Notes under the pieces: generated by a model
What the model was told of the DNA's origin: nothing
The model's database searches: none
Seen by the model: the letters and a program-made list of their open reading frames with translations, nothing else
Assembly (NCBI GenBank): GCA_000227505.4
Contig: AGIF02000001.1
Coordinates: forward strand, 2,438,035-2,502,034
Origin: a gamma proteobacterium HIMB55
GTDB lineage: Bacteria; Pseudomonadota; Gammaproteobacteria; Pseudomonadales; Halieaceae
Direction of reading: 5' to 3'
DNA length: 64,000 nucleotides
Translations under genes and position numbers: made by a program
In this document: one piece after another, positions 1-4,787 of the stretch
Layout of the letters: each line of letters opens with the position of its first letter
Position numbering within the stretch: position 1 is the stretch's first letter

Positions 1-831
1 AATCAAGAGATGTGGGCGAAAGCGGCAACCCAAGAGAATATTGGCGTTCTTCGAGAGCGTGGAATAGGGATTCTAGGCCCAGATTCAGGCAGCCAAGCCT
101 GTGGTGATATTGGCGCTGGTCGCTTACTTGAACCAAGCGAGATTGTTGAATCACTCATCAGCAGCTTCTCAAACGGTCAGCTTGCAGGGCGTCACGTCGT
201 CATTACGGCAGGCCCCACGCGAGAGCCGCTATGTCCTGTCCGATACCTGAGCAACCGAAGCTCCGGCAAAATGGGGTATGCATTAGCTGAAGCCGCTTTA
301 AATGCAGGTGCTCGCACGACGCTCATTTCGGGACCGGTCCATTGTGAGGCCGCGCCAGGTGTTGAAGTCGTTCAGGTGGAAACCACAGAAGAAATGCTCG
401 AGGCGAGCATAGCCGCGGGAGATGGAGCAGATATCTTTATCGGTGCCGCCGCCGTTGTCGACTTCAAGCCTGAAACAGTAGCAACGCAAAAAATAAAGCG
501 CGCTGGATCCGAGAGCATGGAACTGAAATTGGTTTCTAATCCAGACATCATCGCCACGATAGCGACCTCAGATGCGAGACCTAAGCTTGTGGTCGGCTTT
601 GCCGCAGAAACGAACGATGTGACGGCCTATGCACGTGACAAGCTACAGCGAAAAAACCTGGATTTCATTTTTGCGAACGACGTAAGTGATGAAGCGATCG
701 GTTTTAATAGCGATAGTAATGCGGGGACGCTTATTAGTGCAGACAGTGAGATGGCGATGGCTATGTCGTCCAAACGTGTTCTTGCAGAAACGATTATCTC
801 CGAGCTCGCAATTCATCTGGCAGAAAAATGA
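1..831 (+). CDS. coaBC: CoaBC, C-terminal part (phosphopantothenoylcysteine synthetase half), 5'-truncated by window edge
   Basis: Bifunctional CoaBC (Dfp) makes 4'-phosphopantetheine in coenzyme A synthesis. Only the end of the decarboxylase half and the whole CoaB ligase half are in the window. The reading frame is open from base 1, so the gene starts upstream. The CoaB half begins near the motif GPTREPLCPVRYLSNRSSGK, matching the nucleotide-binding region of CoaB (E. coli has Asp where this has Cys before PVRY). KIKR and GFAAET are also family-typical. The stop overlaps the ATG of the next gene by 4 bp (ATGA), which suggests translational coupling. In Pseudomonas and E. coli dut follows this gene; here it does not. 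Confidence 0.95.
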   Translation, partial: NQEMWAKAATQENIGVLRERGIGILGPDSGSQACGDIGAGRLLEPSEIVESLISSFSNGQLAGRHVVITAGPTREPLCPVRYLSNRSSGKMGYALAEAALNAGARTTLISGPVHCEAAPGVEVVQVETTEEMLEASIAAGDGADIFIGAAAVVDFKPETVATQKIKRAGSESMELKLVSNPDIIATIATSDARPKLVVGFAAETNDVTAYARDKLQRKNLDFIFANDVSDEAIGFNSDSNAGTLISADSEMAMAMSSKRVLAETIISELAIHLAEK

Positions 832-3221
832 GCACCTCATCAGCCCCGCCAGAAGGTCATATTTCAGCCGCTGGTAAAGGTTTGGGGTTTACTTCTCTCG
901 TAGGCATCGCGCTTGCTTTTTTACCCCCAATCTTCGCACTGATTTATTTGAGTACTGGTCTGTCATCTTCGGAGGAGGACTCACTTTTCCAAGCCCAGGC
1001 GAATAATGCACTTGAGCAACGTACGACACTTATCGAATCCGAGGTTGCGGCCATAACCAATGGACTGGAGAAAGCGCTGGCCAAAGATTTGAACGCGAGA
1101 ACACCGGAATCAATCGTTCATCTCATCCCCGGCGGCACTGAATTACAGCTCATTCCGCTGAGCGATATGGGTGTTGCGAGCCTCGACCCAACAGACTACG
1201 GGCTTACCTCTCTAGTTTTGCTCGACCGCGTGCGCAAAACCTTTGAAAGCGGCAACACCGGGCTTGAGGTAGTCACGCAGGGAGAGACGCATAAGCTCGT
1301 AGCCGTTGCTCGTTTTACCCGTCCGAATAATCAAGGTGTTGCGATCGTCTCGCTGGATGAATCTATTTTAGAGCGGTGGGTCAGTAAGGCCCCTGTCGGC
1401 AAGTTCGCGTTGTGGCAGACCTTTGCCGACTCACCGAGCATCCAAATCAACCCGTCAGACAGCGACAACATTTCCAATTTAAGTGCCACAACCAGTCGGG
1501 ACGTCAAAGGAACACCCTATGTCTTGGGTCTTAGTGTCGACGCATCAAAAATGCCTAAGGCACCCGCACTCTCGTTTTTGTTTTGGCCCCTAATACTTGC
1601 TGGCCTTGGCGCCAGCTACTGGGTTTTGTTTGTGCAGAGACGCACCGACCTGGAGGGTGATGTGAAAAGCATCCTCGAAACCGCGGATTCTCGCGAGACC
1701 GTCATCCTAAAGCACGCCGAACTATCGCCGCTTGCTTTCACGTTAAGGCAGCTCGCGTCCAACAATAGAAGTCGAATGCGACGCTCAGAGGCAACCACCG
1801 TTGAAAGTCGGGCTAGCCAAACCCCAGTCGGATCGGAAGACGAAACAGAGCTCGCAGACCTAACAGCAACTGCACCCGTTGCGAGCGAGTGGTCGATTTG
1901 GAATGGGTCATGGATTGGGATTACAGATGCTGAGGGAGAGGCAGGAGAGCTCGATGCTCTCAAGAAAATGGCTTTGGGTATCGCGGGCCTCACAGCACGC
2001 TCTTCAGTAAGGTCCTTTGTGGTGTCCTTCCTTGGCGGGGAAGCAGAGGCGCGTGCAAAAACATCTTTCATTAAAGCACTGCTATCGGAAGGCGTTGACG
2101 TCATTGATATCGGGTTAGTACCGCAACCAGTGGCACACATGGCAACACACAATGGAACTTCATCAGGCGCAGCCCTAATAATCCAGCGAGATGAAGATGG
2201 AACGCTAACGGTTGGAGCTGTTTACAACCGCCAGTGGGCTGAAGAGAGTTTTTGGCAAAAAGTAACGGCCTTGTCGAACGAGCCCATTGCAACCTCATCT
2301 AACGGACGAAGCATCAAACTCGAACTGATCGACGATTATTGCGATCGCCTCTCCGCTGATATGGCAATGGCTGAAGAGCTCCGAGTAAACGTCTTATGCG
2401 ATAACCCGGTGACATTGGCCATCGCCCAGGAGAGCTTGGAAAAGACATCCTGCGAAGTTCGCACTATTCGGCTTGATCCTGGCTTTACTACCCAAGAAGC
2501 ACAATCACTCGTTACTGATCATGAGGCGAGCCTCAGCTTCATATTCAACAGTCAAGCTTCGCGGCTCACCGTCCTAGACGAGCACGCGAATCGCATGCGC
2601 GACGACCATATCTTTATGCTTCTGAGCCAAGACGCACTCGCACGACATCCAGGCAGTGATGTCATTGTGGGTAATAAGAGTTCACGCTCGCTGCCCTCGT
2701 TCATCACCTCTTGTGGCGGGGCCTCAAAGATGGTCAACGCCATACCCCATTCTCTTCAGCGCGAGATAGCTGATACTGGAGCGATCATCGGAGGGGATTG
2801 CGATGGTGCTTTTTATCTGCGCGACCGGTGGTTTGGGTCGGATGATGCAATCTACGCAGCCGCGAGGCTCACAGAGATCGTCAGCAACGAAGGCGCACTA
2901 ACAGACTTAATTGCCTCGCTGCCGGAGACATCGCTCAAGGTATTGCCACTTGGTGATAACAGTCCTTTGCACGCTGCTCTATGGGCACTTCTCGCGGAAG
3001 AGGCCAATTTTGCAGGTGCTCGCGTTTCACGAGAGAATGGCATACGCGTGGACTTTGCGGATAGCTGGGTGCACATCGATGATGCTGCATTAACTAATAA
3101 GCCAACATTGAGAATTGAGGGTGACGACGATGACTGTCTTGCCCGGCTCGAGGGCCTTATTACCGATCTTCTATTGCGCGGTTACCCTGAGCTTAAGATT
3201 TCATTTTCTTCACTTACGTGA
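828..3221 (+). CDS. Membrane-anchored AlgC-like protein with all catalytic motifs lost (pseudo-phosphomannomutase)
   Basis: 797 aa. Seen: a transmembrane helix near residues 22-45, a soluble segment to about 244, a second helix near 247-269, a linker, then an AlgC-like domain from about residue 355 to the end. This matches the long AlgC form of pseudomonads. The fold is recognisable from DIGLVPQPV, a HPGSDVI stretch, RDRWFGSDDAIYAAARL and a C-terminal LRIEG strand. The phosphoserine motif TGSHNP is replaced (IIQRDE, with Gln453 at the serine position). The metal loop DGDGDR is NSQASR (574-579). The sugar-binding GEMSGH is GDCDGA (656-661). The phosphate loop RASNTTP is DDAALTN (751-757). The N-terminal substrate loop is also gone. 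Phosphomutase activity is therefore unlikely; a structural or sensory role is inferred. It is coupled to coaBC and followed by argB, the position of algC in Pseudomonas. Confidence 0.85.
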   Translation: MSTSSAPPEGHISAAGKGLGFTSLVGIALAFLPPIFALIYLSTGLSSSEEDSLFQAQANNALEQRTTLIESEVAAITNGLEKALAKDLNARTPESIVHLIPGGTELQLIPLSDMGVASLDPTDYGLTSLVLLDRVRKTFESGNTGLEVVTQGETHKLVAVARFTRPNNQGVAIVSLDESILERWVSKAPVGKFALWQTFADSPSIQINPSDSDNISNLSATTSRDVKGTPYVLGLSVDASKMPKAPALSFLFWPLILAGLGASYWVLFVQRRTDLEGDVKSILETADSRETVILKHAELSPLAFTLRQLASNNRSRMRRSEATTVESRASQTPVGSEDETELADLTATAPVASEWSIWNGSWIGITDAEGEAGELDALKKMALGIAGLTARSSVRSFVVSFLGGEAEARAKTSFIKALLSEGVDVIDIGLVPQPVAHMATHNGTSSGAALIIQRDEDGTLTVGAVYNRQWAEESFWQKVTALSNEPIATSSNGRSIKLELIDDYCDRLSADMAMAEELRVNVLCDNPVTLAIAQESLEKTSCEVRTIRLDPGFTTQEAQSLVTDHEASLSFIFNSQASRLTVLDEHANRMRDDHIFMLLSQDALARHPGSDVIVGNKSSRSLPSFITSCGGASKMVNAIPHSLQREIADTGAIIGGDCDGAFYLRDRWFGSDDAIYAAARLTEIVSNEGALTDLIASLPETSLKVLPLGDNSPLHAALWALLAEEANFAGARVSRENGIRVDFADSWVHIDDAALTNKPTLRIEGDDDDCLARLEGLITDLLLRGYPELKISFSSLT

Positions 3222-3241
3222 TGACCTTTAGGAGCCCCTAG

Positions 3242-4150
<909 letters not shown>

Positions 4151-4181
4151 TCGCAATTCCACATACGCACTGGCGGACACA

Positions 4182-4787
4182 ATGCCCAAGAAACAAAGCG
4201 GTCGAAAAGAGCAAATCCTTCAAACACTGGCAGAGATGTTGGAGTCGAGCCCAGGAAGCAAGATCACTACCGCAAAATTGGCGAGCAACCTGGGTGTATC
4301 CGAGGCCGCTCTGTACCGCCACTTCCCGTCGAAAACGCGGATGTACGAATCGTTGATCGATTTCGTCGAAGACACGCTTTTTACACGTATCACTCAAATT
4401 CTCAGCGAAGAAACCAAGCAACTAGCGCGCTGTAAAAGCATCCTTACCCTGTATTTGATTTTTTGTGACCGTAACCCAGGCATCACCCGTATTCTTAGTG
4501 GGGATGCGCTGATGGGCGAACACGAGCGACTTCGTGACCGCGTTAGTCGGGTTTACGATCGCATTGAGACTCAATTGCGCCAGTGTTTGCGAATGGCTGA
4601 ACTGGAAGAAGGCTGGAGAACAGCGATACCGGTTAACACCGCGGCAAACATGTTGCTGGCGACCGCGGAAGGAAGAGTTGCCCAATTCGTGCGGTCAAAT
4701 TTTTCCCAATCACCCACAGATGGCTGGGAAGATCAGTGGTCAATTGCAACCGCCGCAATTGGTGTCGAGGTGCCCAAAGGTCAATAG
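4182..4787 (+). CDS. slmA: Nucleoid occlusion factor SlmA (TetR family)
   Basis: SlmA binds DNA over the nucleoid and blocks FtsZ ring assembly there. About 201 aa from the chosen ATG at 4182. An upstream in-frame TTG at 4137, overlapping argB, would add 15 residues absent from the family. A GGCGGA ribosome site precedes the ATG. The TetR helix-turn-helix is clear (KITTAKLASNLGVSEAALYR then HFPSKTRMYESLIDF), and RNPGITRILSGDALM is characteristic of SlmA. In E. coli slmA also sits beside pyrE. Confidence 0.95.
   Translation: MPKKQSGRKEQILQTLAEMLESSPGSKITTAKLASNLGVSEAALYRHFPSKTRMYESLIDFVEDTLFTRITQILSEETKQLARCKSILTLYLIFCDRNPGITRILSGDALMGEHERLRDRVSRVYDRIETQLRQCLRMAELEEGWRTAIPVNTAANMLLATAEGRVAQFVRSNFSQSPTDGWEDQWSIATAAIGVEVPKGQ

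Follow-up and report, generated by a model that had tools for sequence, protein, structure and literature searches.

AlgC of Pseudomonas aeruginosa, a phosphomannomutase/phosphoglucomutase (PMM/PGM; PDB 1k35, 2fkm and 4il8), and the long-form AlgC proteins of Gammaproteobacteria are the closest described relatives of the protein reported here. Its gene lies at positions 828-3221, between coaBC and argB, in a 64,000-nucleotide stretch of the gamma proteobacterium HIMB55, of the genus Luminiphilus in the family Halieaceae (GenBank assembly GCA_000227505.4, contig AGIF02000001.1, positions 2,438,035 to 2,502,034 of the forward strand); this whole stretch is referred to as the window. In AlgC, phosphoryl transfer runs through Ser108, and the Mg that is needed for activity is bound by residues 242-246, according to the available text of one report (PMC3369874). 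In contrast to AlgC, the window protein has lost the serine, metal, sugar and phosphate loops. We propose that it is a transmembrane Cache receptor with a dead AlgC module that acts by binding, a reading to which we assign a probability of about 0.6.

GlmM in its complex with the CdaA cyclase is an active, soluble enzyme, and the complex is non-covalent and regulatory. GalF is a regulator that belongs to a different protein family and has no membrane module, and vertebrate PGM5 (aciculin) is soluble and lacks a Cache module. Like the window protein, GlmM has a phosphohexomutase fold, which in the GlmM-CdaA structures (7olh, 7ojs and 9g69) is bound, by the structure titles, to the cytoplasmic domain of CdaA. 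GalF likewise is paralogous to a sugar-nucleotide enzyme, and its NCBIfam name makes it the regulator of that enzyme, GalU. PGM5, of which herring structures were among our structural matches, is likewise an inactive superfamily member with a structural role, but it keeps the family active-site residues and binds substrate, as given in the available portions of PMC5570346 and PMC7761743. The window protein does not follow this pattern, since its alignment to the family has all four loops replaced and the ligand loops gone.

Ligand-binding Cache domains, as in the chemoreceptors and sensor kinases PctA, Mlp24 and DvhD, have the same exported fold between two membrane helices that is predicted for the window protein. 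However, they feed signalling outputs, whereas the window domain is fused to a mutase fold. In the accessible part of a survey (PMC4822843), Cache domains are said to have been seen nowhere but in proteins that also carry a signalling output domain, SMP_2 members being the exception, and that part does not mention pairing with a metabolic enzyme. A paper devoted to the PAS and Cache domains of P. aeruginosa does not contain the terms 'PA5322', 'AlgC' or 'mutase' in its main text. Among the matches listed from open-access PMC, outside which most subscription journals lie, there was no bacterial inactive phosphohexomutase, no dead bacterial AlgC and no paper on a Cache-AlgC fusion architecture.

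The mutase domain has lost its active site

An earlier note, made from the DNA letters alone, described the gene as encoding a membrane-anchored AlgC pseudoenzyme in an intact frame of 797 codons. The open reading frame (ORF) indeed starts with ATG and encodes 797 aa with no internal stop. The AlgC relationship of the C-terminal part was borne out: residues 413-780 match a P. aeruginosa PMM/PGM chain (phmmer E 2.2e-33), Pfam PGM_PMM_III scores 23.7 bits, above its cut-off of 20.7, and PGM_PMM_I scores 20.1 bits, slightly below its cut-off of 22.5. Identity to solved AlgC chains is approximately 22%. The structure models have the four domains of PMM/PGM, and the mutase fold is predicted to be kept.

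The four motif replacements proposed in that note fall where it had put them, as a multiple alignment places Q453-E456, N574-R579, G656-A661 and 751-757 on the motifs. Q453 is in the position of the catalytic Ser, the Mg loop reads NSQASR with no Asp remaining, and the sugar and phosphate loops read GDCDGA and DDAALTN. We scored 17 catalytic or ligand columns, in AlgC numbering, in 112 copies of the gene, of which 18 belong to the genus, 78 to other genera of the family and 16 to other families of the order. For Ser108 and Mg residues 242-246 the numbering is as in the available text of PMC3369874. Of the 17 columns the window keeps 1 (R579, the Arg of DGDGDR), whereas of the 141 further conserved columns in the mutase domain it keeps 61 (p 0.003 by Fisher's test). 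Judged by its sequence, the window mutase domain is catalytically dead, as had been claimed, and no intact catalytic Ser motif stands elsewhere in the protein. A hidden intact site obscured by misalignment was rejected, as SHN is absent from the whole protein and three alignments agree on the window; a frameshift or sequencing error was also rejected, the frame being intact and the relatives in agreement.

The SHN motif is retained in none of the 18 Luminiphilus copies. Outside the genus, Ser108 and the three metal Asp are kept in 94 of 94 copies, and in a named-organism set, which overlaps the same genomes in part, the Ser is kept in 70 of 70 loci. Seven of the 94 fall below 17/17, through substitutions (G039, G049, G087, G044), a contig edge (G115, G108) or both (G079). 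The serine-motif replacements differ across the genus, with QRDE in the window and SRDQ, LRHP and ADQF in relatives; SRDQ places a lone Ser of G063 in the Ser108 column, from which a second alignment moves it. Loss of SHN is genus-wide, and the other sites are graded across the genus. Six copies of the G015 group keep 10-12 of the 17 sites, including all three metal Asp, Lys118 and His329, and the seventh (G008), cut by a contig end, keeps 8 of 13 readable sites. G002 keeps 8, G009 7 and G005 6, and the remaining genus copies keep at most 3. In our reading, the serine motif was lost in or before the genus ancestor and that the metal, sugar and phosphate loops were lost too in the lineage of the window.

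Among the loci of the named-organism set outside the genus, otherwise nearly intact AlgC proteins of other Gammaproteobacteria have SSN for SHN in one case (L138) and Asn for the third metal Asp in two (L154, L172). Such changes may be the beginnings of a similar loss in other lineages.

Selection and conservation in the dead copies

The dN/dS ratio of the mutase domain was determined by the Nei-Gojobori method with a codon bootstrap, and active pairs were restricted to the same genus, dS of 0.15-1.4 and at least 350 codons. For the dead domain, the ratio was 0.119 (0.073-0.186) in G027-G007, two copies with no more than 2 of the 17 sites left; three G015-group pairs gave 0.031, 0.033 and 0.030. 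These values (0.03-0.12), from four pairs in two sub-clades, lie inside the range of the active within-genus AlgC pairs listed (0.023-0.208). Beyond the G015 group, the remaining dead pairs that we compared had dS of 3 or more or were saturated. Catalytic residues have therefore been lost while purifying selection, as measured in two sub-clades of relatives, has been kept, which is the pattern of a pseudoenzyme. The dead domain is no simple decaying pseudogene, in agreement with the earlier note, and its fold, intact in the predictions, seems to be kept by selection.

For identity and conservation counts, G008 (706 aa, ending at a contig end) was excluded, leaving 17 dead copies. Among these, 12 of the 17 active-site columns are kept in fewer than half of the copies, a state shared by 51 of the 141 conserved columns outside the active site (p 0.008 by Fisher's test), and 33 of the 141 are kept in at least 94%. 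Preferential loss of the active site is clear in five copies (window, G030, G077, G060 and G005; p 0.0001-0.005), borderline in five (G063, G027, G007, G018 and G009; p 0.056-0.12) and not seen in the other seven (p of at least 0.27).

In 15 aligned dead copies, 44 columns are invariant, including D602, R606, P608, G609, R667, W668, D673, Y676, R680, E683, R740, D742 and W747, many of which are nearly invariant in the active family as well. The kept residues cluster in domain III, where dN/dS is lowest in the computable pairs, and where domain III meets domain IV. By count on the alignment, R740 is the equivalent of AlgC R410, a member of the coevolving domain-interface network of AlgC in the available text of PMC3369874. 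The kept residues would suit a hinge that still moves, but fold stability alone would account for them as well.

An exported domain of predicted Cache type precedes the mutase

The earlier note had also placed two helices around an exported domain, and hydropathy finds hydrophobic helices at residues 23-41 and 251-269 that enclose the exported part. Both are retained in all 18 genus copies. The structure models have a Cache fold between them, and a Cache identity of the exported domain is accordingly a modelled one. In homologues, dCache_1 was found in 16 of 60 scanned at E of 1 or below (best 2.5e-7). Columns G115, D133, R136, E147, G191 and Q197 of this domain are conserved in both active and dead copies. 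A PDB sequence search with a profile of the N-terminal module (N-module) returned weak matches (best E 0.0076), mostly to membrane helices and coiled coils, and HAMP was not among the matches listed in two profile scans (25 of 83 families in one of them). By Pfam, the window protein and four homologues contain PGM_PMM domains and no known signalling output domain.

Active long AlgC proteins with a homologous N-module are common in Halieaceae, Pseudomonas and other Gammaproteobacteria. The window protein is thus membrane-anchored as proposed, but its anchoring is not new. The suggestion of a sensor or scaffold gains from the predicted sensor-type exported domain; its further idea, that the protein may read sugar phosphates, is unsupported because the sugar and phosphate loops are lost, and input is likelier to come through the exported Cache domain.

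The reverse case was observed in five genomes of g44, a different genus of Halieaceae (L250, L251, L253, L254 and L256), where the AlgC enzyme is intact at 478-479 aa and the Cache/membrane module is gone. In the sister genus g23 (L246-L248, L262 and L263), active AlgC has 994-1022 aa and so exceeds the length seen elsewhere in the family.

Other mutases in the genome and family

An active mutase elsewhere in the genome had been anticipated, and two were found. GlmM (L001) has both SHNP and DGDGDR intact, and a 451-aa CpsG-type protein (L002) has SHNP, DGDFDR and GGEMSAHH intact. L002 (G000 C1:208957-212343) scores 647 bits to the NCBIfam CpsG model, below the cut-off of 801, and is directly adjoined by galU. 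A close CpsG-type protein (E of 1e-200 or below) is present in all 17 genus genomes that are at least 90% complete, in 16 of the 18 genomes with dead AlgC and in the majority of the remaining Halieaceae genera, where it usually accompanies an intact AlgC. In the sister genus g23 (G078-G082), no close CpsG-type protein was found in five of five genomes, the best E of 5e-60 being what AlgC itself scores; in the four of them that were read, AlgC keeps both its Ser and its metal Asp. Presence in Luminiphilus and lack of a close one in g23, where AlgC is active, fit the idea that a spare mutase allowed the loss of AlgC activity.

The gene has been lost repeatedly

Of 57 genomes sampled from the genus, 50 were readable at coaBC-argB. 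The argB locus was not found in G001, G006, G025, G066, G069 and G075, which were left uncounted, and G028, with only argB on the contig, was not counted as an absence. A dead copy is present at 18 of the 50 loci (one cut by a contig end), a remnant of 122 aa at one (G058), and coaBC adjoins argB at 31; the gene is thus absent or gutted in 32 of 50. Relative to G030, G058 has a clean internal deletion of 2018 bases between flanks that are 96-97% identical, and its 122-aa ORF (L064/L277) results from an in-frame deletion that joins residues 1-46 to the last ~76. The spacers of G016, G013, G072 and, more weakly, G019 still align to the 3' end of the gene. In the G007 assembly, a full-length dead copy occurs together with a deleted allele (L274 and L275; contigs 170 and 252), the near flanks being 90-91% identical, which may represent two strains in one metagenome-assembled genome. 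On a tree of coaBC and argB in which intact g23 is the sister, and on which re-rooting may have shifted the support values close to the root, we count at least five losses or guttings (one each in G003, G058 and G072, one in the G013-G016 clade and one in a large clade next to that of the window). Within a single genus and its sister, active, serine-less with metal loop, fully dead, gutted and deleted copies form a natural series, in which the change from enzyme to non-enzyme can be traced stepwise.

Proposed role and alternative explanations

An active site that is lost in a fold seemingly kept by selection suggests a signal receptor or scaffold rather than an enzyme. In our proposal, the exported Cache domain would sense a small molecule or envelope state, and the two membrane helices with a HAMP-like helical pair would pass the signal via a flexible linker to the cytoplasmic module. 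This module, formerly AlgC, would now act by binding and conformational change, and would most likely gate or scaffold an enzyme of sugar-nucleotide or envelope-polysaccharide synthesis. The first candidate for a partner is the intact CpsG-type mutase encoded beside GalU.

Several observations weigh against this proposal. The repeated losses in the genus imply that the function of the gene is dispensable. Low dN/dS was found in two sub-clades of relatives, but synonymous sites are saturated in the pair that includes the window, G000-G030 (pS 0.755, pN 0.228), and, because G030 is its nearest full-length relative, dN/dS of the window's lineage is not measurable. In pairs with an N-domain identity of 0.2-0.3 (averages 0.26 and 0.23), identity of the mutase domain averages 0.57 across 542 active pairs versus 0.29 across 57 dead pairs, and long-term constraint is therefore weaker than on the enzyme. 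Ten Luminiphilus N-modules, including that of the window, reached no Pfam Cache model; because Pfam gave nothing useful there, the Cache assignment is drawn from predicted structure and homologues. Foldseek overlays of the Cache domain are loose (target TM-score mostly 0.4-0.6, rmsd 5-10), the full-length model has a pTM of 0.60, and the predictions were built from alignments that include active relatives. G018 and G031 (75% and 78% complete) have a dead copy and no close CpsG-type protein. Finally, ligand binding, signal passage and the partner are steps that we infer.

The same losses raise the question of a relic, in which the CpsG-type mutase freed AlgC, the active site was lost by drift and deletion has proceeded lineage by lineage, the frame not yet being broken. 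The spacer remnants, the clean deletion in G058, the fallen mutase-domain identity and the wide occurrence of CpsG-type proteins in the family are consistent with this explanation. Yet the low dN/dS in two sub-clades, the lack of any interrupted frame in 18 copies (G008 being cut by a contig end), the two helices in every copy and the well-kept columns outside the active site argue against it, and we regard a relic as unlikely. A switch of the domain to some other enzymatic activity, or to plain binding of sugar phosphates, in either case at the old cleft, would agree with the low dN/dS of domain III, the invariance of R667, W668 and R740 and the metal Asp, Lys118 and His329 of the G015 group. 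All four window loops are changed with no conserved new form across the genus, unlike a new active site, and this explanation appears quite improbable.

The residues kept by six G015-group copies could also be taken as a sign of residual mutase activity without the usual serine, at least in that less changed group. The window, however, has lost both Ser108 and the Mg-binding segment 242-246, to which the available text of PMC3369874 assigns phosphoryl transfer and metal binding, and such activity is very improbable. Retention of the gene for its place in the operon, as a translational coupler from coaBC to argB whose protein has no role, might be suggested by its start, which overlaps the coaBC stop (ATGA), and by its end 23 bases before argB. 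We find it scarcely credible, as 31 relatives have coaBC and argB with nothing between and coupling alone would not hold amino acids under purifying selection.

Beyond the receptor proposed for Luminiphilus, long AlgC could be a so far unrecognised receptor-enzyme class, in which a Cache sensor gates the central mutase and the precursors of envelope polysaccharides, Luminiphilus having kept the receptor and the five g44 genomes the enzyme. We advance this tentatively, leaning slightly towards doubt. If true, an outside signal would gate the supply of envelope polysaccharide precursors. Long AlgC carries a predicted Cache receptor domain, and this pairing bears on how alginate and lipopolysaccharide precursor supply may be regulated in Pseudomonas and relatives.

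Layout of the locus

Coordinates of the gene, its parts and its neighbours in the window, with the basis of each assignment.
Feature	Positions	Strand	Basis
Whole gene, predicted Cache-type membrane receptor module plus catalytically dead AlgC (PMM/PGM) domain, 797 aa	828..3221	+	ORF, homology, structure models
coaBC, 3' part (window begins within coaBC; 416 aa in L004), one syntenic flank	1..831	+	
argB, other syntenic flank	3245..4150	+	
First transmembrane helix, residues 19-44	882..959	+	hydropathy; helix in models
Exported domain of predicted Cache fold, residues 45-246	960..1565	+	
Second transmembrane helix, residues 251-269	1578..1634	+	hydropathy, model
HAMP-like helix, short strand and helix after the second transmembrane helix, residues 271-324; likeness in layout alone	1638..1799	+	secondary structure of models
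Low-confidence, probably flexible linker, residues 325-352	1800..1883	+	pLDDT <50 at 322-352
Dead mutase domain, predicted PMM/PGM fold, residues 353-793	1884..3206	+	
Lost serine motif, SHNP to QRDE (453-456)	2184..2195	+	
Lost metal loop, DGDGDR to NSQASR (574-579)	2547..2564	+	
Lost sugar loop, GEMSGH to GDCDGA (656-661)	2793..2810	+	
Lost phosphate loop, RASNTTP to DDAALTN (751-757)	3078..3098	+	

A promoter scan of positions 1-4500 returned 0 sigma-70-like sites versus a mean of 3.7 in shuffled sequences, and the 4 terminator-like sites there, versus 4.4 in shuffles, are no excess. In four other Halieaceae genomes (g35 and g24; L269, L271-L273), coaBC adjoins argB with no algC there. The coaBC-algC-argB order of the algC orthologue is present in the window and at eight active outgroup loci of the family.

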